Shown piece by piece: positions 2,232 through 14,807 of a stretch of 64,000 nt of DNA. The notes under the pieces were generated by a model. That model was not told the origin of the DNA, did no database searches, and worked only from the letters and a program-made list of their open reading frames with translations. The DNA is from Solwaraspora sp. WMMD406. Its GTDB lineage: Bacteria; Actinomycetota; Actinomycetes; Mycobacteriales; Micromonosporaceae. How positions within the stretch are numbered: the stretch's first letter is position 1; each line of letters opens with the position of its first letter. The translations under genes were made by a program, and so were the position numbers. The DNA lies in NCBI RefSeq assembly GCF_029626025.1, contig NZ_JARUBF010000001.1, positions 5,240,001 to 5,304,000 of the forward strand, given 5' to 3'.

Positions 2232-3533
2232 CTATCGGCCGGCGGCCGTACCGTTCGTGACGGCGTCCTGCCAACCCGCGTCGGGCGCCTGACCCTGCTC
2301 GACCGCACGCAGCGCGTTCTCCACCGCCGTACGGACGGCCTGGTTCTTCGGGCCGAGGTAGACCGGCTTGAGCTCGCTGGCACCGGCGGCGAAGATCTCA
2401 CCGGTCGGAGCGTCCGAGAAGTACTCGTTGACCGCCTCGGCGACCTTCGGGTCCGACAGCGCCTGCGGCGACGACGGCAGGTTGCCGACCGCTTCGAAGG
2501 CGGCGATGTGACCCTCCGGGCTGGTCAGGTACTTGACCAGCTCAGCGGCGGCCTCCTGGTGATCGCTGGAGGTCGGCACCGCGAGGAACGAACCACCCCA
2601 GTTGCCGCCGTTGCCCGGCGCGGTGGCGATGTCCCACTTGCCGGCGGCCTCCGGACCGGCCTGGCCCTCGATGACACCGGTCATCCAGGCGGGGCAGGCG
2701 ATGGTGGCGAAGCTGGCGTTCTTGAAGCCGGCGTTCCACTCGTTGGAGAACGACTGGAGGTTGTTCGACAGGCCGGCACCGATCATGTCGGTGGTCAGGT
2801 CGAACGCCGCCTTGACGTCCGGGTTGCTCTCCAGGACGAACTCGTTGCTGGGGTCGTAGTAAGTGTGCCCGCTGTTGGCACCGGCGATCTGGCTCAGCAC
2901 CAGGTTGTAGAAGCTGGTCGCCGAGTCGACGAACGCCTTGTCCGGGGTGGCGGCCTTGAACTGCTCGCCGACCTCGATGAACTCCTCCCAGCTGGACCAC
3001 AGCCCGCTGACCTCGTCACGCTCGGTCGGCAGGCCGGCGGCCTCGAAGAGGTCCTTGCGGTAGCACAGCGCCATGCCACCGACGTCGGTGCCGAGTCCGA
3101 GCACCTTGCCGTCGGGCAGCACGCCGGCTTCCCACTTCCAGGGCAGGAAGTTGTCCTTCAGGTCGTTGGCGCCGTACTCACCGAGGTCGACGAACTTGTC
3201 GGCCTGGGCGAAGAACTGCGACATCGTGCCCTCTTCGATCGCCACCACGTCTCCGGCACCGGAGCCGGCGGTGATCTGCTGGGTGAGTCGGGTGTTGTAG
3301 TCGCCCAGACCGAGACCCTTGCCTCGCTGCTGCACGGTGACGTTCGGGTTGTCCTGCTGGTACTGCTCGATCAGTTCGTCATATCCGAAACCCGCGTCGC
3401 CGAAGATGTCGACAACCAGGGTGATCGGGCCGTCTGGATCCGATTCGGCGTCGTCGGAGCCGCAGGCCGCCGCCGTCAGCATGACGGCTGAGGCGAGTGC
3501 GACCGCGGCGAACCGCCGGAGCGTGACGCTCAT
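2232..3533 (-). CDS. cebE: Extracellular sugar-binding lipoprotein (CebE type)
   Basis: The 433-residue protein begins with a lipoprotein signal peptide: basic n-region, hydrophobic stretch, then TAAAC with the modified Cys at residue 24. The mature part follows the family 1 solute-binding fold, with ITLVVDIFGDAGFGYDELIEQ near the start and a C-terminal region rich in short helices, as in CebE and other cellobiose or maltose binding proteins. It would be tethered outside the membrane and hand oligosaccharide to the two permeases. The ATG at 3533 is preceded by an AGAGGGG ribosome site; an in-frame extension to 3692 would bury the signal peptide and is rejected. It is the first gene of the CebR-like controlled operon. 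The exact ligand is inferred from context. Confidence 0.9.
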   Translation of the reverse strand: MSVTLRRFAAVALASAVMLTAAACGSDDAESDPDGPITLVVDIFGDAGFGYDELIEQYQQDNPNVTVQQRGKGLGLGDYNTRLTQQITAGSGAGDVVAIEEGTMSQFFAQADKFVDLGEYGANDLKDNFLPWKWEAGVLPDGKVLGLGTDVGGMALCYRKDLFEAAGLPTERDEVSGLWSSWEEFIEVGEQFKAATPDKAFVDSATSFYNLVLSQIAGANSGHTYYDPSNEFVLESNPDVKAAFDLTTDMIGAGLSNNLQSFSNEWNAGFKNASFATIACPAWMTGVIEGQAGPEAAGKWDIATAPGNGGNWGGSFLAVPTSSDHQEAAAELVKYLTSPEGHIAAFEAVGNLPSSPQALSDPKVAEAVNEYFSDAPTGEIFAAGASELKPVYLGPKNQAVRTAVENALRAVEQGQAPDAGWQDAVTNGTAAGR

Positions 3534-3702
3534 CCTGACCCCTCTCAAGGTCGCTATTTCTGTGGTGGGGGGTGACCGTGTGGTGTCCGCTCCGGGCTCC
3601 GGGACAGCGTTGGCGAAAGGGGTCCGACAACTCGGAGCGGGCACTGCACGGCCGCGCTCCGGGAGAATGCAAGCAAGTGACGTGGGCCTCACTCACCCCG
3701 GC

Positions 3703-3716
3703 CGGGAGCGCTCCCA
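3703..3716. promoter_or_regulatory. CebR-like operator, promoter-distal side (covers start of transcription)
   Basis: CGGGAGCGCTCCCA matches the 14-bp CebR palindrome TGGGAGCGCTCCCA at 13 of 14 positions. It lies directly downstream (leftward) of the predicted -10 element and should cover the transcription start of the cebE operon, where a bound LacI-family repressor would block initiation. The regulator gene is not in the window. Confidence 0.8.
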
Positions 3717-3718
3717 TG

Positions 3719-3747
3719 AGATTGCCGGGAGGTTTCGGAGGTGTCAA
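3719..3747 (-). promoter_or_regulatory. Sigma-A type promoter of the cebE operon
   Basis: On the minus strand TTGACA (3742-3747), a 17-base spacer and CAATCT (3719-3724) form a near-consensus housekeeping promoter. The predicted start, near 3712, gives a leader of about 180 bases before the cebE ATG. Operators lie nine bases upstream of the -35 box and immediately after the -10 box. Confidence 0.7.
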
Positions 3748-3755
3748 GGGGCCAC

Positions 3756-3769
3756 TGGGAGCGTTCCCA
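3756..3769. promoter_or_regulatory. CebR-like operator, upstream of the -35 box
   Basis: TGGGAGCGTTCCCA matches the CebR consensus at 13 of 14 positions. Its start is 53 bp from the other copy, about five helical turns, so both sites face the same side of the DNA and could be bridged or bound cooperatively. Confidence 0.8.
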
Positions 3770-3851
3770 TTTCGTTACTGCCGGAGCTGACCCCGTCCAG
3801 CGGGGCGCCGGATCGACCCACGGGTGGTCACCGGCCCGGAAACCGCTGGTC

Positions 3852-3931
3852 GCCTAGCGGTGAACCGACGGACGCCTGACGGTGAACCGACGGACTGGCC
3901 GCCGGCGGTCGGTCGGTCGGTCGGTCGGTCA
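3852..3931. repeat. 22-bp tandem pair and GGTC tetranucleotide run at the 3' end of the pRiA4b-type gene
   Basis: Two adjacent 22-bp units (3852-3873 and 3874-3895, two mismatches) are followed by six consecutive GGTC units (3907-3930). The last unit supplies part of the stop codon of the leftward gene ending at 3929. The rest of the stretch from 3770 to 3851 shows no gene. Confidence 0.85.
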
Positions 3932-4474
3932 GGCGAACCGGCGCAGGAGCGTGGTGACGCGGGCCGGATCGAAGGTGTGCGGATCGAAACGCGGACCCGC
4001 CCAGGCGATCATGTCGGCGTGGCGGGGATGGGCCGGATCGGCGACCGCGGCGAGGAACTCGGCGTACCCGTACGCCCCGCCGACGTCCTCCGGCGGACAG
4101 CCGCCCGCGCCGTCGAGGCACAGTGGATACCGTACGTCCGGCTCGGCGAGGCTGACGTCCTCGACCACGACGTCGTGCTCCCACCAGTCCCCGAAGTCGT
4201 ACGTGTAGCGAAGCCGGGCGCCTTTGCCCGCCACCACGTCGAGCCGTACGTCCAACTCGTCGCGCAGCAGCAACTCCCCGTCCGGGTCGGGCACACCGTA
4301 CTGTGCACCGTCGATCTCGAACGAGTGCAGGTGGCAGTCGTGCCAGCCCATCGCGTGCTGGATCACCCGGTGCACCCGGTCGAGGGTGTAGCCGCCGGGC
4401 ACCAGCAACCGGCGCCAGACCGAGGGGGTGACGTCGGTCAGGGTCACCTTCAGTCGAAAGATCTGACGAGGCAT
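3929..4474 (-). CDS. Plasmid pRiA4b ORF-3 family protein
   Basis: The 181-residue protein matches the pRiA4b ORF-3-like family (PF07929) along its length: an N-terminal FRLKVTLTDVTPSVWRRLLV strand, the DRVHRVIQHAMGWHDCHLHSF helix, a YDFGDWWEHDV motif and an Asp-Gly-Ala-Gly-Gly-Cys-Pro-Pro-Glu-Asp-Val-Gly-Gly segment near residue 130. The molecular function of the family is not established; members occur on plasmids, near transposases and alone in chromosomes. The ATG at 4474 has GAGGAG eight bases upstream; a GTG six bases earlier is possible. No partner gene is evident, and it is divergent from the small Cys-rich ORF. Confidence 0.85.
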   Translation of the reverse strand: MPRQIFRLKVTLTDVTPSVWRRLLVPGGYTLDRVHRVIQHAMGWHDCHLHSFEIDGAQYGVPDPDGELLLRDELDVRLDVVAGKGARLRYTYDFGDWWEHDVVVEDVSLAEPDVRYPLCLDGAGGCPPEDVGGAYGYAEFLAAVADPAHPRHADMIAWAGPRFDPHTFDPARVTTLLRRFA

Positions 4475-4493
4475 GTCCACCGCTCCTCTGGCC

Positions 4494-4499
4494 TAGGCT
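4494..4499 (+). promoter_or_regulatory. -10 element of a probable leaderless transcript
   Basis: TAGGCT fits the TANNNT -10 pattern and ends six bases before the ATG at 4506, so transcription would start on or next to the start codon. No ribosome-binding site precedes that ATG, which supports a leaderless message. Confidence 0.5.
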
Positions 4500-4505
4500 C
4501 GGACC

Positions 4506-4625
4506 ATGATCTGTGGTGCGTGCCGCGTGGGGCAGCACGGTAGGTGTCCGGGCGGTAACTGGTGCGACTGTCAGCACCGTACCCCCGCCCCCACCCCACC
4601 TGTCACGGGTCCGGCGGGCGAATGA
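4506..4625 (+). CDS. Small Cys-rich protein (39 residues), probably zinc-binding
   Basis: This short frame starts with ATG and encodes CGAC near the N-terminus, then QHGRC and CPGGNWCDCQH, giving five Cys and two His spaced like a zinc-binding module, and ends in a Pro/Thr-rich tail. Three things argue that it is real. It has a TANNNT element six bases upstream. Its TGA overlaps the ATG of the following reductase gene (ATGA). The Cys/His pattern is too ordered for chance. I recall similar short peptides in other actinomycetes but cannot name a family, and no function is known to me. It is too short for routine gene calling. Confidence 0.6.
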   Translation: MICGACRVGQHGRCPGGNWCDCQHRTPAPTPPVTGPAGE

Positions 4626-5446
4626 GCCTCGACGCCGCCGGCGACCGGTCTCCGACACCCCCGGCACCAGGGATCCGACGACTGGCACCGATCCGACCCT
4701 GCCCCGTCGACCTGGACGACGAGGCGCTCGTCGACAGCTACGCCAACCCGGCTCTTCCCCATCTGCGCGTCAACTTCGTGACCAGCGCCGACGGGGCGGT
4801 CACCGTGGCGGGCCGGTCCACCGGTCTGTCGAGCCCGGCGGACAAGCGGGTCTTCGCGATCCTGCGGATGCTCTGCGACGCGTTGCTCGTCGGCGCCGGC
4901 ACGCTCCGCCAGGAGCGGTACCGTCCGCTGCGGCTGGATCCCCGACGGCGGTCCTGGCGGCGGCGACACGGGCTACCCGAGCAGCCCACCCTGGTGGTCG
5001 TCTCCGGTTCACTCGACCTCGATCCGACGCATCCGGCGCTGGCCGACTCCCCGGTCCGGCCGATCGTGCTGACCACGCGCACCGCGTCTGCCGACCGCCG
5101 ACGCCGATTGGCGCCGGTCGCCGACGTGATCGCGGAGGGCGACCCGTCGGTGGACCTGACCGCCGGCCTGGACCTGCTGCGGGCCCGGGGACACCGGCAC
5201 CTGCTCTGCGAAGGCGGCCCGATGCTGTTCGGCGCCCTGACCGCCGCCGACCTGGTGGACGAGCTCTGCCTGAGCGTGTCGCCGCTGCTCGCCGGCGCTG
5301 GCGCCGGCCGGATCACCGCCGGTCCGCTCAGCCCCGTACGCCAACTCGACCTGCGCCAGGTGTTGGTGGCCGACGACGGTCTGCTCCTGCTGCGCTATCT
5401 GCGCCGACCCGACCCGACACCACCTCACCCCGATCACCCACAGTGA
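4622..5446 (+). CDS. RibD C-terminal-domain (pyrimidine reductase) family protein
   Basis: The 274-residue protein is a stand-alone RibD_C/dihydrofolate-reductase-like domain. Visible hallmarks are RVNFVTSADGAVTVAGRS (residues about 47-64), LVGAGTLRQE for the nucleotide loop, and HLLCEGGPMLFGAL near residue 200. In riboflavin synthesis this fold reduces the ribosylamino-pyrimidine with NADPH; stand-alone actinobacterial members are annotated only as pyrimidine reductase family, and no other rib gene is near. The ATG at 4622 overlaps the stop of the small Cys-rich ORF; an upstream GTG at 4562 would overlap that ORF heavily and is less likely. Confidence 0.85.
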   Translation: MSLDAAGDRSPTPPAPGIRRLAPIRPCPVDLDDEALVDSYANPALPHLRVNFVTSADGAVTVAGRSTGLSSPADKRVFAILRMLCDALLVGAGTLRQERYRPLRLDPRRRSWRRRHGLPEQPTLVVVSGSLDLDPTHPALADSPVRPIVLTTRTASADRRRRLAPVADVIAEGDPSVDLTAGLDLLRARGHRHLLCEGGPMLFGALTAADLVDELCLSVSPLLAGAGAGRITAGPLSPVRQLDLRQVLVADDGLLLLRYLRRPDPTPPHPDHPQ

Positions 5447-5606
5447 TATAACGTTCACGCCAAGGCGCCGATCATCGTTGATTACCCCGCCGGACGCGGA
5501 AATCGAGCCGGCTCCCCGAGTCGGTTCGCCTCGGGGTCGTACCCGTGCGGCAGGATGCAACCCGTGGGTACGAAGCGACGCGAGATACAGCGATCAGGAC
5601 ATCACA

Positions 5607-7418
5607 ATGAGTGACCTGATTGCGGAGCCCGAATGGCCGGACTACGACGGTCCGGACTACGACGGTCCCGACCCCGACGGGCCGGCTCTGGGATCGGCGG
5701 TCGGTCGGGTCCTCGGCACCGCGGACGCCACTCCCCTACAGTTCTGGACCGCCGTCGAAGCCGGCAGCTACCTGCAACTCGACGACGTCGTGGTGACCCG
5801 ACGCGCGCTGCCCGGACAACCGCCGGTGACCATCGCCGGGGTGGTGACCCAGGTACGGGCCCGGCACGAAGGTGCCCAGTTCGACTCCGACGTCTTCGCC
5901 ATCGCCGACGGCACCCTGCCCGCACAGGTGCAGGAAGCCGCCGAGATCACCGCCACCCGACTCGACCCCGAGATCTACGTACCGCCGCAGCCGGGCGCGC
6001 CGGTCTGGCGGGCCGAAGGTGACGCCCGGGCCCGCGCGCTGCACTTCGACCGGATGGAGCGGCAGATCCCGATGGGATTCGGCCGCGACAGCGTCCCGGT
6101 CTACCTCAACGCCGACTTCCTCGACGGCCAACGCGGCGCGCACGTGTCGATCTCCGGCATCTCCGGGGTGGCCACCAAGACCAGCTTCGCCATGTTCCTG
6201 CTCTATTCGGTGTTCCGCTCCGGCCGACTCGGCGGTGACGCGGTTAACGCCAAGGCGCTGATCTTCAACGTCAAAGGCGAGGACCTCCTCTTCCTCGACC
6301 ACCCCAACGTCCGGTTGGACGAGGCGACGACGACCGCGTACGCCCGGCTCGGCCTGCCCGCCGGGGCCTTCCCCGACGTACGGGTCTACGCCCCGCCCCG
6401 GGCCGGCGACGCCTCCGGCACCCCCGATGTAAAAAGCCGACCGACCGGCGTGGACAGCTTCTACTGGACCGTCGCCGAGTTCTGCGACAAGCAACTGCTG
6501 CCGTACGTGTTCGCCGACGCCGACGACGAACGTCAGCAGTACACGATGGTCGTCCACGCGGTCACCGCGTACCTGCGCCGGCACGCGCAACCCGCCGACG
6601 GCGGCATCAGCATCGACGGCCGGCGGATCGGCTCGTACGGGGATCTGGTCGACCACGTCGTCGACCAGCTCGGCGACGAGGAGACCCGGTCGGCCTGGGC
6701 CGGCTCGGCCGTCGGCATGGGTACGGTGAACGCCTTCGCCCGCCGGCTGATCGGCAGCAAACGCGACCTGGCCCGGCTGATCCGCGGTGACCTGGCCACC
6801 CGACGACCACATCAGATCAGCACCGACGACAGCGCCCAGGTGACCGTGGTCGACCTGCACAACCTGCCGGACCGGGCGCAGCGGTTCGTGGTCGGGGTGA
6901 CGCTCAAGAGCGAGTTCGACCGCAAGGAACGGGCCGGCACCGCGAAACCGCTGCTGTTCGTGGTCCTCGACGAGCTCAACAAGTACGCCCCCCGGGACGG
7001 CTCCTCGCCGATCAAGGAGGTGCTGCTCGACATCGCCGAACGCGGCCGGTCGCTCGGCGTGATCCTGATCGGCGCGCAACAGACCGCCAGTGAGGTGGAG
7101 CGGCGGATCGTCACCAACTCGGCGGTCCGGGTCGTCGGCCGACTCGACCCGGCCGAGGCGTCCCGTCCCGAGTACGGCTTCCTGCCCGCCGCAGCGCGTC
7201 AGCGGGTGCTGCTGGCCAAGCCCGGCACGATGTTCGTCAACCAACCGGACATTCCGGTGCCGCTGTGCCTGGAGTTCCCGTTCCCGGCGTGGGCCACCCG
7301 CCACTCGGAGGCCGGTGCCGCGCCGAGCGGCACGCTGCGCTCGATCACCCAGGCCGCCGATCCGTTCGCCGTGGTCGGCAGCCGGTCGGCGATCTCCGAC
7401 GACGACATCCCGTTCTGA
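5607..7418 (+). CDS. herA: HerA-like DNA translocase ATPase
   Basis: The 603-residue protein has an N-terminal beta-barrel-like region (LQFWTAVEAGSYLQLDDVVV and TIAGVVTQVRARHEGAQF), then a FtsK/HerA-type ATPase. The P-loop SGISGVATKTS has Lys191 but lacks the usual Gly before it; Walker B is LLFVVLDELN with Asp455 and Glu456; a sensor-like ILIGAQQTASEVERR follows, and the tail ends in acidic DDDIPF. HerA hexamers pump DNA through NurA during end resection in archaea and some bacteria. The ATG at 5607 has AGGA upstream. It precedes sbcD, sbcC and a nurA-like gene on the same strand, which supports the assignment. An in-frame extension to 5478 lacks family features. Confidence 0.85.
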   Translation: MSDLIAEPEWPDYDGPDYDGPDPDGPALGSAVGRVLGTADATPLQFWTAVEAGSYLQLDDVVVTRRALPGQPPVTIAGVVTQVRARHEGAQFDSDVFAIADGTLPAQVQEAAEITATRLDPEIYVPPQPGAPVWRAEGDARARALHFDRMERQIPMGFGRDSVPVYLNADFLDGQRGAHVSISGISGVATKTSFAMFLLYSVFRSGRLGGDAVNAKALIFNVKGEDLLFLDHPNVRLDEATTTAYARLGLPAGAFPDVRVYAPPRAGDASGTPDVKSRPTGVDSFYWTVAEFCDKQLLPYVFADADDERQQYTMVVHAVTAYLRRHAQPADGGISIDGRRIGSYGDLVDHVVDQLGDEETRSAWAGSAVGMGTVNAFARRLIGSKRDLARLIRGDLATRRPHQISTDDSAQVTVVDLHNLPDRAQRFVVGVTLKSEFDRKERAGTAKPLLFVVLDELNKYAPRDGSSPIKEVLLDIAERGRSLGVILIGAQQTASEVERRIVTNSAVRVVGRLDPAEASRPEYGFLPAAARQRVLLAKPGTMFVNQPDIPVPLCLEFPFPAWATRHSEAGAAPSGTLRSITQAADPFAVVGSRSAISDDDIPF

Positions 7419-7456
7419 CCAGGTAAGGCCCACATGGTGAGGAGGTCACCCGACAG

Positions 7457-8656
7457 ATGAGGATCCTGCACACCTCCGACTGGCACGTCGGCAAAGTCCT
7501 CAAGGGACAGCCTCGGCTCGCCGAGCAGATCGCCGTACTGGCGCAGGTGGTGGAGATCACCCGGGCCGAACGTCCGGATCTGGTGATCGTCGCCGGCGAC
7601 CTCTACGACACGGCCGCACCGACCCCGGACGCCACCCGGGTGGTGACCCGGGCGTTGACCGCGCTGCGCGGCACCGGCGCCGCCGTGGTGGCGATCGGCG
7701 GCAACCACGACAACGGTGCCGCGCTCGACGCGCTACGCCCCTGGGCGGACGCCGCCGGGATCACCCTGCGCGGTTCGGTCCGAGAGGACCCGGCCGAGCA
7801 TCTGATCGAGGGGGTCACCGCCGACGGCGAGGCGTGGCGGCTCGCGGCGCTGCCGTTCCTGTCCCAGCGCTACGCCGTACGGGCCACCGAGATGTACGAC
7901 CTGACCGCCGCCGAGGCCACCCAGACGTACGCCGACCACGTCGGACGGGTGATCGGCCGGTTGACCCGCGACTTCGCCTCGGCGGCCTCGGCCCCGGCCT
8001 CAGCTACCAGCACGCCCACGGTCACCGGCACGCCCACGGTCAACCTGGTCACCGCGCACCTGACCGTGGTCGGCGGCCAGACCGGCGGCGGCGAACGCGA
8101 AGTTCACACCGTCCTCGGCTACGCCGTACCGGCGACGGTCTTCCCCACCAGCGCCCACTACGTCGCCCTCGGCCACCTGCACCGGGCGCAACGCGTCGAC
8201 GGGCCCTGCCCGATCCGCTACAGCGGCAGTCCGCTGGCGATCGACTTCGGCGAGCAGGACAACGTCGCGTCGGTCAGCGTCGTCGACGTCACCGCCAGCA
8301 CCGCCGCCCGGGTACGGGAGGTCCCGCTGACCGCCGCCACCGCGTTGCGTACCGTCCGGGGCACCCTGGCCGAGCTCGAAGCCGGCGAGTACGGCGACGC
8401 CTGGCTGCGGGTGTTCATCCGCGAGGCACCGCGCGCCGGGCTGCGTGAGGAGGTGCAGGCGCTGCTGCCCCGGGCCCTGGAGGTGCGGATCGACCCGGAC
8501 CTGCTCCCGGCCGGCGGCACCGCGACACCCGCCGCGCGCCGCGCCGGCCGGGCCCCGGCGGAGCTTTTCGCCGACTACCTGGACTCCCGGGGACACGGCG
8601 ACGACGGCGTCCGGGCCCTGTTCGACACCCTCTACGAGGAGGTGACCTCGTCGTGA
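7457..8656 (+). CDS. sbcD: Nuclease SbcCD subunit D (Mre11 family)
   Basis: The 399-residue protein carries all the phosphodiesterase motifs of Mre11/SbcD: HTSDWHVGK at the N-terminus, VIVAGDLYD, GGNHDNGAALDAL, TAHLTVVGG and VALGHLHRAQ. These residues bind two manganese ions and form the 3'-5' exonuclease and hairpin endonuclease site. A GAGGAGG ribosome site lies 11 bases before the ATG, and the stop overlaps the SbcC start (GTGA). A Ser/Ala/Thr-rich insert around residues 175-190 includes a short repeat of Thr-Pro-Thr-Val. It should act with SbcC on DNA ends and hairpins. Confidence 0.96.
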   Translation: MRILHTSDWHVGKVLKGQPRLAEQIAVLAQVVEITRAERPDLVIVAGDLYDTAAPTPDATRVVTRALTALRGTGAAVVAIGGNHDNGAALDALRPWADAAGITLRGSVREDPAEHLIEGVTADGEAWRLAALPFLSQRYAVRATEMYDLTAAEATQTYADHVGRVIGRLTRDFASAASAPASATSTPTVTGTPTVNLVTAHLTVVGGQTGGGEREVHTVLGYAVPATVFPTSAHYVALGHLHRAQRVDGPCPIRYSGSPLAIDFGEQDNVASVSVVDVTASTAARVREVPLTAATALRTVRGTLAELEAGEYGDAWLRVFIREAPRAGLREEVQALLPRALEVRIDPDLLPAGGTATPAARRAGRAPAELFADYLDSRGHGDDGVRALFDTLYEEVTSS

Positions 8657-11169
8657 GGCCGCTGCGGCTGGATCTGGCCGGTTTCACCGTCTTCCGCGAC
8701 GAGACCACCGTCGACTTCACCGACGCCGACTTCTTCGCCCTGGTCGGTCCGACCGGCTCCGGCAAATCCACCATCCTCGACGCGATCTGCTTCGCGCTGT
8801 ACGGCGTCGTACCCCGGTGGGGTAGCAGCCGGGGTATCGCCTCGGCGCTGGCCCCGTCGGCCAACGAGGCCCGGGTGCGGCTGGTCTTCGAAAGCGCCGG
8901 CAGCCGCTATGTCGCCACCCGGGTGGTCCGCCGGGACGCCCGGGGCGCGGTGAAGACCGGAAACGCCGGCCTGCAGCTGATGCCACCGGGCTTCGACGTC
9001 ACCCGGCTGGACACCGGGATGAGCCCGGACGACCTCGGCGACGTCCTCGCCGGCAGCGCCGCCGAGATGGAGCAGGCCGTGCTGGACGCGGTCGGTCTGC
9101 CGTACGAGCAGTTCACCACCTGCGTCCTGTTGCCGCAGGGCAAGTTCGCCGACTTCCTGCACGCCAAACCCGCCACCCGGCAACAGATCCTGGTCAACCT
9201 GCTGGGGTTGCACGTCTACGAGCGGGTACGGGATCGGGCCACCGCCCGCGCCGGGCAGGCCGACGCGGCGCGCGACGCCGTCGACCAGCTCCTCGGTGGC
9301 CTGGCCGATGCCGACGACGACGCGCTGGCCGCCGCGACCGAACGGGTGTCGGTGCTGCGGGACCTGTCCGGCGCGGTCACCGACGCGCTACCCGACCTGA
9401 CCCGGGCACAGCAGGCGGTGGCCGCCGCGAGTGCCCGGCTGGCCGAGGTGGACGCCGACATCGACCGGCTCGGGCGGGTCCGGGCACCCGACGCGGTGGC
9501 GGCGCTCGCCGAGGCGGTGGCGACGGCCCGGACCACGGCGACCGACGCCGGTCACGCCGTGGTCACCGCCGAGGAGCACGAGGAGAAGGTCCGCGCCGAA
9601 CTCGCCGCCAGTGGCGACCCGACCACGTTGCGGCTGCTGGTCCGGGCCCACGAGGAACACGACCAGGTGGCCGCCGACGCGACCAAGCTGGCGTCGGCCG
9701 TACGCGCCGCCGAAGGCGAACACGCCGCCGCGACGGCGGCGCTGCGCTCGGCCCGCACCGCCGCGGCAGCCGCGGACGACGCGCTGGAACAGGCCCGCCG
9801 GGCCTACCAGGACGCGCAGACGGCGCAACGCGCCGAGGCGCTGCGGACCCACTTGGTCGCCGGCGAACCCTGCCCGGTCTGCGAGCAGCCGGTCGACGCC
9901 GTGCCACCGATCGCACCCGGGTCCCGGCTGGCCGAGGCGGAAGCGGCCGGCCACGCCGCCCGCGCGGCGGCCGACCGGGCCCGGCAGGTGGTCACCGATT
10001 CCGAGCAGGCGGTACGGGCCGTGGAACGCGCCCTCGACCAGGCCCGCGCCCGCCACGAACACCTCGGCACCCGGTTGTCGCAGCTGGACGACCAACTGTC
10101 CACCTCACCCGGGCGCGACGCCCTGCTCACCGAGCTGACCGCCATCGGGCGGCTGCAGGAGCGCCTCGACCAGGCCGGCGGCGCGGTCCGGCGGGCGCGG
10201 GAAGCGGCCCGGCAGGCCCAGCGGGCCGCCGCCGAGGCCGAGCAGCGGTTGCAGGCCGGGTGGCGGGACTTCGACACCTGCCGGGACGCGGTCGCCGGGC
10301 TGCGTCCGCCAGCGGCCGACCGCACCGACCTGGCCGCCGCGTGGCGGGCGCTGGCCGACTGGGCGACCGGTCAGCTCGACGATCGCCGTACGGCCCGAGC
10401 GGCGGCGGAGCTCGACCTCACCACCGCGAACGAGGCCGCCGCCGGCGTCAGCGCCCGGATCGACGAGTTGTTCGACGCCGCCGGAGAGCCGCCGCCCGGT
10501 GGCCGGCCGACACCCGGCACGGGACTCCCGGTCGAACCCGCCGGCTACCAGCAGGCGGCGGTCTTGGCAGTCGAGCGGGCCGAGGGCGAGCTCCGGCGGA
10601 TCGGCGACCGGGTCGACCAGGCGGCGCAGCTGCGTCAACGTCGGGCCCGCCACGACCACGACGCGCAGGTCGCCCGCGCCCTCGCCGGACACTTGCGGGC
10701 CAACAACTTCGAACGGTGGCTGCTCACCGAAGCCCTCGACCTGCTGGTGCAGGGGGCGTCGCGGATCCTGCGGGACCTGTCCAGCGGGCAGTACGAGCTC
10801 GTCCACGACAAGGGTGAGTTCTTCGTCGTCGACCACCACGACGCGGGCCTGCGCCGGGGGGTGCGGACGCTGTCCGGCGGCGAGACCTTCCAGGCCTCGC
10901 TGGCGCTGGCGCTGGCCCTGTCCGAACAACTGGCCGGCATGTCGACCACGGCCGCCAGCCTGGAGTCCATCGTGCTCGACGAAGGTTTCGGCTCCCTCGA
11001 CGCGGCCACCCTGGACACCGTCGCGGCGACGTTGGAGGGGCTGGCCGCCCGGGGGGATCGGATGGTCGGCCTGGTCACCCACGTACCGGCGTTGGCCGAG
11101 CGGGTACCGGTCCGGTTCGAGGTCCGCAAGGACGCCCGGACCGCGCGGGTGCAGCGGAGCGGACTGTGA
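8653..11169 (+). CDS. sbcC: Nuclease SbcCD subunit C (Rad50-like SMC ATPase)
   Basis: The 838-residue protein has an N-terminal Walker A at GPTGSGKST (residues 32-40), a Q-loop region near VLLPQGKFADFL, two long Ala/Arg/Glu-rich coiled-coil arms, a zinc hook CPVC at residues 407-410, and a C-terminal ABC signature LSGGETFQASL followed by Walker B IVLDEGFGSLD. This is the complete SMC-type architecture, somewhat shorter than E. coli SbcC (about 1,050 residues) because the coils are shorter. The GTG start overlaps the sbcD stop, and the stop overlaps the next gene's GTG, so stoichiometric co-translation is likely. Confidence 0.96.
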   Translation: MRPLRLDLAGFTVFRDETTVDFTDADFFALVGPTGSGKSTILDAICFALYGVVPRWGSSRGIASALAPSANEARVRLVFESAGSRYVATRVVRRDARGAVKTGNAGLQLMPPGFDVTRLDTGMSPDDLGDVLAGSAAEMEQAVLDAVGLPYEQFTTCVLLPQGKFADFLHAKPATRQQILVNLLGLHVYERVRDRATARAGQADAARDAVDQLLGGLADADDDALAAATERVSVLRDLSGAVTDALPDLTRAQQAVAAASARLAEVDADIDRLGRVRAPDAVAALAEAVATARTTATDAGHAVVTAEEHEEKVRAELAASGDPTTLRLLVRAHEEHDQVAADATKLASAVRAAEGEHAAATAALRSARTAAAAADDALEQARRAYQDAQTAQRAEALRTHLVAGEPCPVCEQPVDAVPPIAPGSRLAEAEAAGHAARAAADRARQVVTDSEQAVRAVERALDQARARHEHLGTRLSQLDDQLSTSPGRDALLTELTAIGRLQERLDQAGGAVRRAREAARQAQRAAAEAEQRLQAGWRDFDTCRDAVAGLRPPAADRTDLAAAWRALADWATGQLDDRRTARAAAELDLTTANEAAAGVSARIDELFDAAGEPPPGGRPTPGTGLPVEPAGYQQAAVLAVERAEGELRRIGDRVDQAAQLRQRRARHDHDAQVARALAGHLRANNFERWLLTEALDLLVQGASRILRDLSSGQYELVHDKGEFFVVDHHDAGLRRGVRTLSGGETFQASLALALALSEQLAGMSTTAASLESIVLDEGFGSLDAATLDTVAATLEGLAARGDRMVGLVTHVPALAERVPVRFEVRKDARTARVQRSGL

Positions 11170-12236
11170 CCGGGGTCGCGACCGGCCGGCCGGCCCGCCC
11201 CGCGTCGAGTCGGCCGGGCCGCGGCGTCCGGTGGTTCGTCGAAGGGTGGCAGCCGGGCTACGGCACGTCGTTCGAAGCCGCCGACTCCGCCGGCCCCGGC
11301 CCGGCTGACGACAACACGGAGGCCACCGACCTCGCGGTGGAGCTGGAACCGGCGGCGTGGCAGGCGTTGCGGCAGCCAGCCGAGGTCCGGGCCCCGGACG
11401 TGGTGCTGCTGGTGGACGGGGTACGCCGAATCGACGCCGCACTGTGGAGCGACGAACCGGACGGGGTCTCCTACCCCGCCGTGGCGGCGTCCTACGCCGC
11501 CGGAGTGGTCCGGTGCGACCTGCGGCGCGGGGCGGCGACCTTGGCCGGGGCACGTCCGGAGCGGGGACTGTTCACGCCGAACGCGGCCGCGACCGATCTG
11601 ACCTTCGGCGCGATCCGCTACCCGGCCCGGCTGGTCGACCACACCGACCCGGCCACCTTGGCGCAGGCGGTGCAGCCGGCGCTGGCCGCGCTGGAGATCG
11701 CCGTGTCGGAGCAGGCCCGAGCGGACGCTGGTGCCGACGGGGAACTGCTGGTGGTCGACGGTCCGCTGCGGGGGCGACAGCTGCCGACCACCGTCGGATA
11801 CGTCAAGTCGCACAGCCGCACCTATCTGCCGGCCGAGCTGACACCGGTGGTGACCGGGCTGCGCCCGGCCGAACGCAGCCCGGTGTTCAAGCACGGCACC
11901 CGGTGGCGCAACTACTCGTGGTATCTGCGGCTACCCGGTCCCCGTGGCGCGCCGTGGGCGGGCATCGTCCGGCTGGAGTGCCGACCCGACATCACCGCGC
12001 GGGCGGCGATCGCGTTGGCGGATCTGTCCCTGGCGGCGCTGCCCCGGTTCGCGTCGACTCCGTACAAGGATCCACGGGCACCGCAGAACCTGGTACCGAT
12101 CGCCGGACTGGAGCGACGGCTGCGGGCCATGCTCGGTGACGCGCGACTGCTGCACCGGGCGCTGAGCCTGTCCGCCGGTGGAGCCGGTGGAGCCGGTGGA
12201 TCAGCCCTGCGCCAGCCGGCCGTCCTGCCGCGCTGA
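11166..12236 (+). CDS. nurA: NurA-like nuclease (NurA domain protein)
   Basis: This 356-residue protein would often be left as hypothetical. Its middle shows the NurA pattern: VLLVDGVRRID with Asp84, LLVVDGPLRG with Asp198, then VGYVKSHSRTYLP, where NurA proteins have a conserved GxVK segment. A C-terminal stretch (STPYKDPRAPQNLVPIAGLERRLRAMLG) matches the substrate-facing end of NurA. NurA is a manganese-dependent 5'-3' nuclease that pairs with HerA. The position directly after rad50/sbcC with a GTGA overlap, and a HerA gene at the head of the operon, strongly support this call, although the sequence is divergent. The C-terminus has a short Gly-Ala-Gly-Gly repeat. Confidence 0.75.
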   Translation: MTGVATGRPARPASSRPGRGVRWFVEGWQPGYGTSFEAADSAGPGPADDNTEATDLAVELEPAAWQALRQPAEVRAPDVVLLVDGVRRIDAALWSDEPDGVSYPAVAASYAAGVVRCDLRRGAATLAGARPERGLFTPNAAATDLTFGAIRYPARLVDHTDPATLAQAVQPALAALEIAVSEQARADAGADGELLVVDGPLRGRQLPTTVGYVKSHSRTYLPAELTPVVTGLRPAERSPVFKHGTRWRNYSWYLRLPGPRGAPWAGIVRLECRPDITARAAIALADLSLAALPRFASTPYKDPRAPQNLVPIAGLERRLRAMLGDARLLHRALSLSAGGAGGAGGSALRQPAVLPR

Positions 12237-12269
12237 CGACCGGATCAGGTCGGCAGGCATACTGCACGG

Positions 12270-13127
12270 GTGGGTCGAGTACGCAGGTCGGAGCCGCCGG
12301 CGGTCCAGGTCGACACCGGCACGGCGCGACTGGCCCCGGATCCGGATCGACGGCGGGCGTACACCCTGTTGTTGGACGGCACCCAGCAGTCACACGTCGA
12401 CCTCGACGATCCGACGCACCTGGAGTTCGAATACATCCGCCGGATCGCCGCCGCGATCGACCTGGCCGCACCGGTCGGCGCCGCGCTGCGGGTGCTGCAC
12501 CTCGGTGGTGGCGCGCTGACCCTGCCCCGGTACCTGATGGCCACCCGACCGGGGTCGACCCAGCGGGTGGTCGAGATCGACGGCGCGCTCGCCGACCTGG
12601 TCCGCCGGGAACTGCCCTGGCCGGCCGACCGCAACCTGCGGGTCCGCATCGGCGACGCGCGGGCCACCGTCGAGGAGGCCCGCCCCGCCAGCTACGACCT
12701 GGTGATCGCGGACGTCTTCGCCGCTGCCCGTACCCCGGCCGGGTTGACGTCGGTGGAGTTCGTCGCGGCGGTCGAGCGGATCCTCGCACCAGGCGGGCAG
12801 CTTTTGTCCAATGTGGCGGACGGCCCGCCACTGCGCTGGGCCCGTCGTCATCTCGCCACCGTCCGTAGCGTACTGCCCGACATGTGCGTCATCGCCGACG
12901 CGGCGGTACTGCGCCAACGCCGGTACGGCAATCTGGTCGTGGTGGCCGGGCGGACCGCGCCACGCGTCGGCGAGCTGACTCGCCGGGCCGCCGGAGACTG
13001 GTTTCCGGCCCGCGTGGTGCACGGCGAGGCGCTCGACCGGCTCCTCGACGCGGCGGACGTCATCGTCGACGCGGACGCCGAAGCGTCGCCGCCGCCACCG
13101 GGCGGAGTTTTTCTGGGCGGCCGTTGA
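12270..13127 (+). CDS. Spermidine-synthase-like methyltransferase fold protein
   Basis: The 285-residue protein resembles the PF01564-like fused-MFS/spermidine synthase family. It has a short beta N-terminal domain ending in TLLLDGTQQSHVDLDDPTHL, a nucleotide-binding loop VLHLGGGALTLPRY, an acidic residue VVEIDGALADLVRR and a VIADVFAAARTP motif. True spermidine synthases have a conserved aminopropyl site near the VIADVF position; here the fit is loose, so the substrate cannot be assigned. The GTG start is 33 bases after the nurA-like gene, so it may be read with the repair operon. A glycine/proline-rich tail is present. Confidence 0.75.
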   Translation: MGRVRRSEPPAVQVDTGTARLAPDPDRRRAYTLLLDGTQQSHVDLDDPTHLEFEYIRRIAAAIDLAAPVGAALRVLHLGGGALTLPRYLMATRPGSTQRVVEIDGALADLVRRELPWPADRNLRVRIGDARATVEEARPASYDLVIADVFAAARTPAGLTSVEFVAAVERILAPGGQLLSNVADGPPLRWARRHLATVRSVLPDMCVIADAAVLRQRRYGNLVVVAGRTAPRVGELTRRAAGDWFPARVVHGEALDRLLDAADVIVDADAEASPPPPGGVFLGGR

Positions 13128-13212
13128 TCCGGACGCCGGCCCGCTCCGTATCTGGGGGTGGGCCCACAGCCACGCGGGCCGGGGTTCGGTGCAGTCTGAT
13201 GGAGGTCGGCGC

Positions 13213-13908
13213 ATGTACGCGGTCGCGAGCGGCTGGCAGGCTGAGGCGGTCCGACCGGGCGCGATCGGCGGAGGCTCGCCCGCCAGCCGAGCCACGCAAC
13301 GTTGGCAGACGATCGACGGGAGGGCGGCCGAACGCGATGATGAGCCGGTGACGCCACGGACGGCAGGTCCCCGCCACCAGGCCGGGACCGCCGAATCCAG
13401 CCATGGGGACGAACTCGTCCGCACGCTCTACGACGAGCACGCCCGGCCGTTGCTGGGATTCGTGCTCCGGCTCACCGGGGGGGACCGGCAACGAGCCGAG
13501 GACATCGTCCAGGAGACCCTGCTGCGGGCGTGGCGTAACGCGCACCGCCTCGGTGCCCAGGGGCAGGCGTCGCTCCGTCCCTGGTTGGTCACCGTGGCCC
13601 GGCGGATCGCCATCGACGATCACCGCAGCGAGAAGGCACGGCCGACCGAGGAGTACGACCGGGATCTGGAGAGCTTCGCGGAAGCCGACGGCACGGACCA
13701 GGTGCTTCGTCAGATGACGGTCACCGACGCGCTGCGGACGCTGAGTCAGCCACATCGGGAGATCCTCGTCGAGACCTACTTCCGTGGACGCACGGTACCG
13801 GAGGCCGCACAGGAGTTGGGGCTGCCGCTGGGCACCGCGAAGTCGCGGGTCTACTACGCGCTACGAGCGCTGCGGACGGCGCTGCAACAGCGGGGGGTTA
13901 CAGAATGA
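13213..13908 (+). CDS. ECF-type RNA polymerase sigma factor
   Basis: Region 2 is visible as LYDEHARPLLGFVLRLTGGDRQRAEDIVQETLLRAW and region 4 as LSQPHREILVETYFRGRTVPEAAQELGLPLGTAKSRVYYALR, giving a group 4 sigma factor. The ATG at 13213 has GGAGG seven bases upstream, giving 231 residues with an unconserved N-terminus of about 60; a GTG at 13348 would give a protein starting close to region 2 and cannot be excluded. Its TGA overlaps the ATG of an anti-sigma gene, the normal arrangement for a membrane-controlled pair. Confidence 0.88.
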   Translation: MYAVASGWQAEAVRPGAIGGGSPASRATQRWQTIDGRAAERDDEPVTPRTAGPRHQAGTAESSHGDELVRTLYDEHARPLLGFVLRLTGGDRQRAEDIVQETLLRAWRNAHRLGAQGQASLRPWLVTVARRIAIDDHRSEKARPTEEYDRDLESFAEADGTDQVLRQMTVTDALRTLSQPHREILVETYFRGRTVPEAAQELGLPLGTAKSRVYYALRALRTALQQRGVTE

Positions 13909-14807
13909 CACGATCCGCGCACTGGGACGTCGGCGCGTACGCGCTCGGCGCACTGGATCCCGAGGACGTCGAACGGTTCGAGGAACACCTCGCCGGCTGC
14001 TGGGCCTGCGCGGCGGAACTCGAATCACTGGTCCCGATCGTCGGGCTGATGTCTACCGTAGACATCAGCCAGTTGGAGGACAGTCCCGCCCTCCCTCCAC
14101 TCAGCCCCACCGGTGCGAGCCGGGCTGGTGGGGCGGACGCCGTCAGCGACGACACCGACGACGAGGTGCCGGCGCGGACCCGGACGGTCGGCCCGTTCGC
14201 CGGCGACCGACGACCCGTCCCCAGCCCCGGCCGACAGCTCGCCCCCGCCCGTAGATCACAGCGGGTGTGGGCCAGCCGACCGTTGCAGATCGCGGCGGGG
14301 TTCGCCCTGGTGGCCACGTTGACCGGGGTCTCCTTCTTCGCCGGTTCGCAATGGTTCGGTGGCGGGTCGGTCCCGCCGCAGGCCGGGCCGGACGTCACCG
14401 TGTCGGCACCGGCGACCGACGATCCGCAGTCCGGGGTCGACGATCCGCAGTCCGGGGTCGGCGGTCCGGAGGTGACCGGCGAGAAGTTCAGCACCGTCGA
14501 CCCGACCACCGGCGTCGAGGCCGACGTGGTGCTGGAAGAGGCGGCGTGGGGCACCCAGGTGTCGTTCGCGCTTCGTCGGGTACCGGGGCCGATGCAGTGC
14601 CGGCTGGTGGTGCTCCGCGCCAGCGGCACCGCCGAAGTGCTGTCCACCTGGAAGGTGCCGGAGTCCGGATATGGCACGCCGCAGCAGCCGGCACCGCTGC
14701 TGCTGACCGCCGCCACCGCCGCGCCCCGCGACGACATCGACCGGATCCAGGTGCAGGCGGTCGATCAGTCCGGGGTGGCGACCGCGCTGGTGACGGTGCC
14801 GGTCTGA
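13905..14807 (+). CDS. Membrane anti-sigma factor with zinc-finger domain
   Basis: The 300-residue protein starts with an anti-sigma zinc-finger domain: HWDVGAYALGALD, then EEHLAGCWACAAEL with the H-x3-C-x2-C triad. A disordered acidic linker follows, then one membrane span near residues 125-147 (LQIAAGFALVATLTGVSFFAG) and an extracytoplasmic domain. It should hold the adjacent sigma factor inactive at the membrane until a signal is sensed outside. A perfect 21-bp tandem duplication (14418-14438 and 14439-14459) inserts seven extra residues (DDPQSGV) just outside the membrane. The ATGA overlap with the sigma gene ensures coupled synthesis. Confidence 0.9.
   Translation: MTRSAHWDVGAYALGALDPEDVERFEEHLAGCWACAAELESLVPIVGLMSTVDISQLEDSPALPPLSPTGASRAGGADAVSDDTDDEVPARTRTVGPFAGDRRPVPSPGRQLAPARRSQRVWASRPLQIAAGFALVATLTGVSFFAGSQWFGGGSVPPQAGPDVTVSAPATDDPQSGVDDPQSGVGGPEVTGEKFSTVDPTTGVEADVVLEEAAWGTQVSFALRRVPGPMQCRLVVLRASGTAEVLSTWKVPESGYGTPQQPAPLLLTAATAAPRDDIDRIQVQAVDQSGVATALVTVPV

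Follow-up and report, generated by a model that had tools for sequence, protein, structure and literature searches.

The window examined here is a 64,000-nucleotide stretch (5.24-5.30 Mb) of the 7.16 Mb genome of Solwaraspora sp. WMMD406, an actinomycete of the family Micromonosporaceae. It carries a cluster of four genes, herA, sbcD, sbcC and nurA, and this study concerns the relation of this cluster to known DNA-end-resection systems and the C-terminus of its HerA protein. A preliminary description, made from the sequence alone, had listed the four genes in this order with the last three joined by 4-base overlaps; the cluster is confirmed on the plus strand, and both coordinates and overlaps match. 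Its features are as follows.

5607-7418, plus strand: herA, 603 residues, HerA-family DNA translocase of the Deinococcus radiodurans type (Walker A GISGVATKTS, Walker B LLFVVLDE)
7398-7415, plus strand: codons of the HerA C-terminal tip, last six residues DDDIPF (from the sequence and its conservation in relatives)
7457-8656, plus strand: sbcD, 399 residues, SbcD/Mre11-type nuclease of a herA-linked clade (TIGR00619, 161.8 bits; motifs; tree)
8653-11169, plus strand: sbcC, 838 residues, SbcC/Rad50-type ATPase with a CPVC zinc-hook motif (TIGR00618, E 1.3e-79)
11166-12236, plus strand: nurA, 356 residues, NurA-family RNase H-like nuclease (profile, Foldseek and key residues)

The overlaps lie at 8653-8656 (sbcD/sbcC) and 11166-11169 (sbcC/nurA), and a gap of 38 bases (7419-7456) separates herA from sbcD. 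The herA start was taken as the ATG at 5607. The list of open reading frames also offers a TTG at 5478; the ATG was preferred because it better fits the lengths of most aligned relatives. The GC contents at codon positions 1/2/3 are typical of genes in all four reading frames (herA 0.72/0.49/0.90, sbcD 0.75/0.54/0.92, sbcC 0.80/0.54/0.91, nurA 0.78/0.60/0.87).

Identity and bacterial affinity of the four proteins

In the first protein, Pfam detected no HerA domain, and the fourth matched its NurA domain (PF09376) marginally (21.8 bits against a cut-off of 21, E 1.5e-4); in the search of the host's own genome, the NurA product had no PF09376 match at E<=1e-3. PHROGs gave HerA only partial FtsK-like and terminase-like matches and gave NurA none. 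A profile of 19 HerA relatives (alignment A2) matched the HerA of the PDB entries 7f6d, 7wrw and 7wrx at E 3.4e-179 over about 550 residues, and a profile of 22 NurA relatives matched the NurA of 7f6d (7f6d_H) at E 7e-40 and 1zup at E 3.8e-9. AlphaFold models were built with modest confidence for HerA (mean predicted local distance difference test score, pLDDT, 70.2; predicted template modelling score, pTM, 0.71) and with a pLDDT of 84.7 and a pTM of 0.83 for NurA. In Foldseek, the HerA model matched D. radiodurans HerA (7wrw_B, E 4.1e-52, template modelling score 0.78/0.80, 47% identity); the NurA model matched D. radiodurans NurA (7f6d_G, E 5.5e-17, template modelling score 0.61/0.65) and the Thermotoga structure 1zup_A (E 6.3e-13). 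Since profile and structure comparison agree, the marginal NurA call can be regarded as settled. The models thus predict a HerA fold (RecA-like core and HAS barrel) in the first protein and the RNase H-like fold of NurA in the fourth. The preliminary description had called these proteins HerA-like and NurA-like, and both names hold, as neither the HerA core nor the RNase H-like fold is lacking.

The residues on which activity depends in D. radiodurans were also found. Those highlighted in its HerA by mutation or structure include the Walker A and B motifs, the catalytic D220, K217, the trans-acting R513 and the translocation residues R495 and R552 (PMC9960219). The HerA of the window has nine key residues (K191, T192, K223, D226, D455, E456, R463, R481 and R520), all invariant in alignment A3, and its Walker A loop, G[IV]SGVATKTS, varies only between I and V among the 19 sequences of A2. 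Cleavage by D. radiodurans NurA needs D53, K201 and R309 (PMC9960219); the counterparts D84, K214 and R304 are invariant across 32 sequences (alignment A4). The D. radiodurans pair (7f6d, 7wrw, 7wrx) therefore shares its folds, its Walker A loop GISGVATKTS and its mapped key residues with the pair described here. The two genes are called an operon in D. radiodurans, in a report whose main text makes no mention of sbcC (PMC9960219).

SbcD contains the phosphoesterase motifs SDWH, GDLYD, GNHD, AHLT and GHLH. SbcC contains GPTGSGKST, CPVC, LSGGE and VLDEGF; its TIGR00618 score of 268 bits is below the family cut-off of 478.5. By these motifs, the two proteins appear to form a bacterial SbcCD, with a phosphoesterase and an ABC ATPase bearing a zinc hook. 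The solved structures closest to SbcD are 4lty (E 7.7e-31) and 6s6v (E 1.3e-30), which we take to be E. coli SbcD, while 1ii7, presumably Mre11 of Pyrococcus furiosus, is far (E 6.3e-8).

HerA-NurA is usually presented as an archaeal system, found also in Deinococcus-Thermus, and the gene order in hyperthermophilic archaea is herA-mre11-rad50-nurA. In Sulfolobus and other archaea, genes for the same four kinds of protein are linked (PMC2288612). The operon described here differs from that cluster: in Foldseek structural alignments its HerA is about 47% identical to D. radiodurans HerA against about 14-15% for the archaeal HerAs listed, and its SbcD is of bacterial type. Judged by these comparisons, the proteins would not count as archaeal in type. 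Transfer of the operon from archaea was considered and rejected because HerA and SbcD are closest to bacterial proteins; nothing indicates archaeal descent, and the archaeal likeness pointed out in the preliminary description does not extend to origin.

Distribution of the cluster and the SbcD lineage

Genomes were sampled, not exhaustively counted, in the surveys that follow, and one fetched stretch (L359) does not enter into them. A nurA-like gene was present in all 25 genomes of the family that were searched (host included), which argues against a chance arrangement; elsewhere in the order, 2 of 16 genomes had it. The loci of 26 relatives comprised 23 with herA, sbcD, sbcC and nurA in order on one strand and three cut by contig ends. 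A scan of contigs for HerA relatives gave 541 loci, the best 80 of which, close relatives only, are the named loci; their genera include Micromonospora, Actinoplanes, Plantactinospora, Salinispora and Asanoa. Complete four-gene clusters were found at 69 of these 80, the other 11 being cut by contig ends. The cluster thus looks to be core in Micromonosporaceae, since it is complete in 69/69 named loci with enough contig. Six other genomes of the same genus keep the same neighbours on both sides. In three loci (L176, L195, L077), sbcC appears split across two frames or shortened, by sequencing error or a genuine break.

Among 296 genomes of the class, HerA (E<=1e-20) was found in 20 and NurA (E<=1e-5) in 22, including all 20 with HerA. 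HerA and NurA thus travel together. One of the two NurA-only genomes has a NurA fragment (G282), and the other has a truncated operon (G325). In the latter, an intact nurA lies behind the C-terminal part of sbcC (L140:8379-10639), and neither herA nor sbcD was found in the 19 kb fetched. At 16 of the 17 class loci fetched, the four genes are complete and in order; at the other, the contig stops after sbcD.

At the level of the phylum, 111 of 396 genomes had a HerA match at E<=1e-10. Loci were fetched from 40 of these 111, chiefly those that ranked high among the matches; weak matches, many of them in family f64 (E ~1e-17 to 1e-27), were left out. All four genes were found at 33 loci, 5 were contig-cut and 2 showed no sbcD within the fetched stretch. 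The archaeal order emphasized in the preliminary description holds for 17 of the 33 complete clusters (herA-sbcD-sbcC-nurA); the other 16 begin with nurA (nurA-herA-sbcD-sbcC), so the earlier reading of an archaeal-order resection set is only partly supported. A plasmid collection gave six records with a match. Five of them carry all four genes (Nonomuraea, an 11.85 Mb record; Streptomyces sp. BB1-1-1; Sphaerospermopsis; Aulosira; Candidatus Chlorohelix), and the sixth, from Nostoc, is cut by the record end. The nurA genes of Aulosira and Chlorohelix were called by the NurA profile (E 3.2e-22 and 7.5e-17), with no match in Pfam. The cluster therefore extends through Actinomycetota and to plasmids of cyanobacteria and Chloroflexota.

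HerA-type motors with nucleases occur as defence systems, and the plasmid-borne clusters raise the question of whether the four genes form an anti-plasmid or anti-phage module that degrades the ends of invading DNA. The operon is patchy outside the host family (20/296 class genomes), the HerA protein is hit by the PADLOC models mad8 (E 2.5e-8) and HerA (E 2.6e-5), and Foldseek returns many defence HerAs as well as a match of NurA to the TdpAB chain 8wfd_G (E 8.7e-4). One complete plasmid cluster stands beside TIGR02680/TIGR02678/DUF2397 genes, and two are near an IrrE-type peptidase gene. Against this, the nurA-like gene occurs in 25/25 host-family genomes, the six same-genus genomes keep the neighbours on both sides, a pattern that differs from that of patchy defence islands, and the listed defence HerAs are 12-16% identical to the HerA of the window versus 46-48% for D. 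radiodurans HerA. The mad8 match spans HerA residues 214-559, the nurA product had no PADLOC match, and the pair does not amount to a strong match of a defence HerA with its partner. A primary role in defence is thus quite improbable. The TIGR02680/TIGR02678/DUF2397 genes, presumably of Wadjet type, adjoin the cluster on a linear plasmid of Streptomyces (L294:1-16447), which also has an IrrE-type peptidase gene there; on the Chlorohelix plasmid (L368), the IrrE-type peptidase gene is directly upstream of the cluster.

The sbcD gene at 7457-8656 is the single sbcD match in the host genome (TIGR00619, E<=0.001). SbcD is present in 189/296 class genomes; among the 20 with HerA, 13 have two SbcD matches and 7 have one, including three genomes of the host family. 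A tree of 70 SbcD sequences places 49 herA-linked and 21 stand-alone proteins on opposite sides of a branch with 100/100 support (branch length 2.27 + 0.67 changes per site about the root as drawn), and the label changes once in 100% of 200 bootstrap trees. Here, stand-alone denotes an SbcD from a genome without a HerA match or with HerA only at another place. The stand-alone rows comprise three second copies and 18 loci from among the 30 that scored best, and family f31 supplied 16 of these 21; herA-linked rows were hand-picked among the fetched loci, and one short row (L358, 125 residues) was dropped from an initial 71. Three genomes (G152, G329, G207) each hold one SbcD of either kind. Because of the tree split and the co-existence of both kinds in these genomes, the herA-linked SbcD is best described as a long-separate lineage, not as an ordinary SbcD that happens to lie beside herA.

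This bears on whether HerA-NurA and SbcCD are merely encoded together and work separately, with hairpins as the targets of SbcCD and other ends as those of HerA-NurA. Loose linkage in some genomes would fit such a division of labour: herA is farther from sbcD in three of the 23 ordered loci (4.6 kb in L036, 3.1 kb in L041, 0.95 kb in L040), and two loci of family f62 (L258, L261) have herA without sbcD, sbcC or nurA in the fetched stretch, the contig continuing beyond it. The herA-linked SbcD is nevertheless a separate clade even where a stand-alone SbcD is also encoded, as if this SbcCD had co-evolved with HerA-NurA, and archaeal Mre11 interacts with HerA (PMC2288612). Independent action of the two pairs is accordingly very improbable.

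The bacterial linkage of herA with sbcD and sbcC is not itself new because sbcD and sbcC lie downstream of a herA homolog in Oceanithermus profundus, as hepA-sbcD-sbcC (PMC5448004). That organism is one member of the Thermales, and the passages on it in that source are silent on a HerA tip and on a separate SbcD clade (PMC5448004). What is new here is the breadth of the linkage, the separate SbcD clade and the SSB-like tip of HerA described below, the last two of which did not feature in the preliminary description. No report of any of the three was found in open-licence PubMed Central, which holds neither preprints nor most subscription journals.

The SSB-like C-terminus of HerA

The HerA of the window ends in ...ADPFAVVGSRSAISDDDIPF. 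Its last six residues, DDDIPF, are the same as the C-terminal hexapeptide (SSB-Ct) of the E. coli single-stranded DNA-binding protein (SSB; PMC5872125). In E. coli, the hexapeptide follows a disordered linker on an OB-fold SSB, whereas its counterpart here sits on the HerA ATPase. Among the best 80 of the 541 relatives, which have 57 distinct 30-residue HerA tails, the ending D[DE]IPF occurs in 80/80 (76 DDIPF, 4 DEIPF). The entropy is 0-0.29 bit over the last six positions versus 0.98-2.69 bits at positions -7 to -24, and silent codon changes occur at three of the six tip positions. The preceding linker is variable, with many G and S residues close to the tip. With an acidic run, a Pro-Phe-COOH end and a seemingly flexible linker, the C-terminus has the features expected of an SSB-Ct-type peptide.

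A DNA pattern for [DE][DE]IPF followed by a stop was searched for in 23 family genomes, the set of 25 without its two most fragmented members. It matched in 22 of the 23, each time at the HerA end; in the remaining genome (G023), HerA ends with DDGIPF. Three further matches were seen, two of which have TGG in place of a stop, while the third is a genuine open reading frame end. The latter frame (L366:568-1878, in G021) ends with RDDEIPF and has no match in Pfam or NCBIfam. The reversed pattern gave one match in the 23 genomes.

Beyond the family, HerA ends with PF in 40/40 class loci (e.g., DDDIPF, DDDPPPF, DDPLPF, DEVPPF, EEDIPPF, DDQPPF, DDAPF) and in 10/40 phylum loci (e.g., DDDLPF and DDGLPF; families f62, f85, f93 and f115). 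A HerA tree of 63 rows requires 5 changes of the tip (3-5 in bootstraps), at least two of which are forced by well-supported branches. Phylum HerAs without the tip often end with DPFxGL, and many phylum HerAs (L253-L292), with or without a PF tip, have a DPFxGL-like motif close to the C-terminus. Since DPF is present in tip-less HerAs as well, it was no longer considered a copy, placed before the tip, of the DPW motif in actinobacterial SSB. The comparison with D. radiodurans HerA covers that protein through residue 605 of 618, and its last 13 residues lie outside the alignment.

SSB tails of the same genomes were also read, using the best-scoring SSB of each genome and ten paralogues. In HerA-bearing class genomes the best-scoring SSB ends with an acidic residue, any residue and PF; examples are FDEEPPF (host), SDEPPF, SDDDVPF and PEDVPF. 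In families f55, f61 and f91 (L295, L297-L299, L301-L303), the best-scoring SSB has no PF tip and ends, for example, with DEGGF, TPLDAD or EEVLTGA.

A possible role in DNA-end resection

D. radiodurans HerA and NurA bind a duplex end as a hexamer and a dimer, and ATP-driven translocation feeds the DNA to NurA; in vitro the 5' strand is cut and a 3' tail is left (PMC9960219). SSB modulates archaeal NurA-HerA, although a section title in the same source states that there is no interaction of SSB with NurA (PMC8910471). The partners recruited by SSB-Ct in E. coli number at least 17 and include RecO (PMC10018359). From these systems the following scheme is proposed. SbcCD would open or clean blocked DNA ends. 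The HerA hexamer and the NurA dimer would then pump the duplex and cut the 5' strand, producing a 3' single-stranded tail. Each HerA subunit ends in a seemingly flexible linker with DDDIPF-COOH, which would give up to six SSB-Ct peptides per hexamer, and these tips could dock SSB-binding proteins at the break, RecO first, or RecG, PriA, RecQ or RecJ. Docking would couple resection to RecA loading, roughly as in RecBCD of E. coli.

We assign a probability of roughly 0.57 to this reading, a dedicated bacterial DNA-end-resection operon whose HerA displays SSB tips that dock SSB partners. Its parts differ in strength: resection by these proteins, considered alone, is probable from the analogy with D. 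radiodurans, whereas docking of SSB-binding proteins by the tip, considered alone, is only slightly favoured. A more specific version, in which HerA mimics SSB, the SSB-Ct array of the hexamer recruits RecO or other SSB partners so that the complex is a RecBCD-like, self-loading initiator of recombination, and separate clades acquired or retained the trait, is tentative, with somewhat less than even odds. HerA-NurA appears here as an operon core to a large actinobacterial family and found through the phylum and on plasmids, linked to an SbcD lineage of its own and accompanied by an AdnAB-type pair. If the tip acts as proposed, trimmed DNA might be handed over directly from the ring translocase to RecA loaders or repair, and HerA-NurA-SbcCD would be a recombination initiator built on peptide mimicry of SSB.

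Several observations weigh against this proposal. At 30/40 phylum loci HerA lacks the tip, and the four-gene set is complete at 27 of these; the tip is therefore an add-on and not essential to the machine. The HerA tail (residues 562-603) is unstructured in the model (pLDDT <50), and it is from this low pLDDT that the linker is taken to be disordered. By family, a PF tip is found on the main SSB in 9/9 families with the HerA tip and also in 5/8 without it; this would fit a shared reader of the two tips, but over 17 families the association is suggestive only and not significant (one-sided Fisher ~0.08, calculated by hand), and none of the ten SSB paralogues read has the tip. In D. radiodurans, HerA-NurA reportedly has only a small effect on radioresistance (PMC4663267), and a repair role in vivo is thus not assured. 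The region upstream of herA was also scanned in 41 genomic regions with box patterns that we take to represent SOS, mycobacterial SOS and RecA-NDp sites. The SOS and mycobacterial SOS patterns did no better there than base shuffles. RecA-NDp-like sites (<=4 mismatches) occurred in 27/41 regions, whereas 200 permuted patterns averaged 17 and reached 27 in three cases; the sites lack a common distance, the best in the window has 4 mismatches and the 41 regions are related, so the excess is a weak lead. One locus (L037) has a RecA-NDp-like site with a single mismatch near the assumed herA start; sites in the remaining regions are weaker and unaligned.

Some of these points would equally suit an ordinary Deinococcus-type HerA-NurA and SbcCD set, in which the acidic PF tail works locally or inhibits its own protein, for example by competing against DNA inside the pore, and binds no SSB partner. 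The match of folds and key residues to D. radiodurans HerA and NurA fits this well, as do the four-gene clusters that lack the tip and the DPFxGL-like motif found with or without it, which indicates that the C-terminus may serve another job. It accounts less readily for a strict acidic run and PF end after a freely varying G/S-rich linker, which resembles a C-terminal docking peptide, for the exact identity with E. coli SSB-Ct, and for PF tails in separate parts of the HerA tree. We consider an ordinary set of this kind rather unlikely.

AdnAB and RecBCD likewise combine a motor with a nuclease for end resection, but their domains are unrelated to those of the operon: in Pfam, none of the four proteins matches the AdnAB/RecBCD families (UvrD-type helicase fused to PD-(D/E)XK). 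Two adjacent host proteins with UvrD-helicase and PD-(D/E)XK domains, at about 6.131-6.138 Mb, are of the AdnAB type. Tandem PD-(D/E)XK places about 3-4 kb apart were counted by hand in 22/24 HerA-bearing and 6/6 HerA-lacking genomes examined, helicase domains being verified in the host only; no such pair was seen in genomes G379 and G539 of family f62. Since the AdnAB-type pair is also encoded by the host, HerA-NurA is an additional route, as the preliminary description had anticipated, except perhaps in f62.

RNA family searches gave nothing at gathering score in 3500-14000, and a promoter and terminator scan gave nothing usable. The gene upstream of herA (4562-5446) resembles a RibD-type reductase domain by eye only. 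Downstream, 12270-14807 holds a spermidine-synthase-like gene, a gene labelled sig (a label given without a family search) and an anti-sigma-like gene; these genes are kept beside the operon in the six other genomes of the genus.

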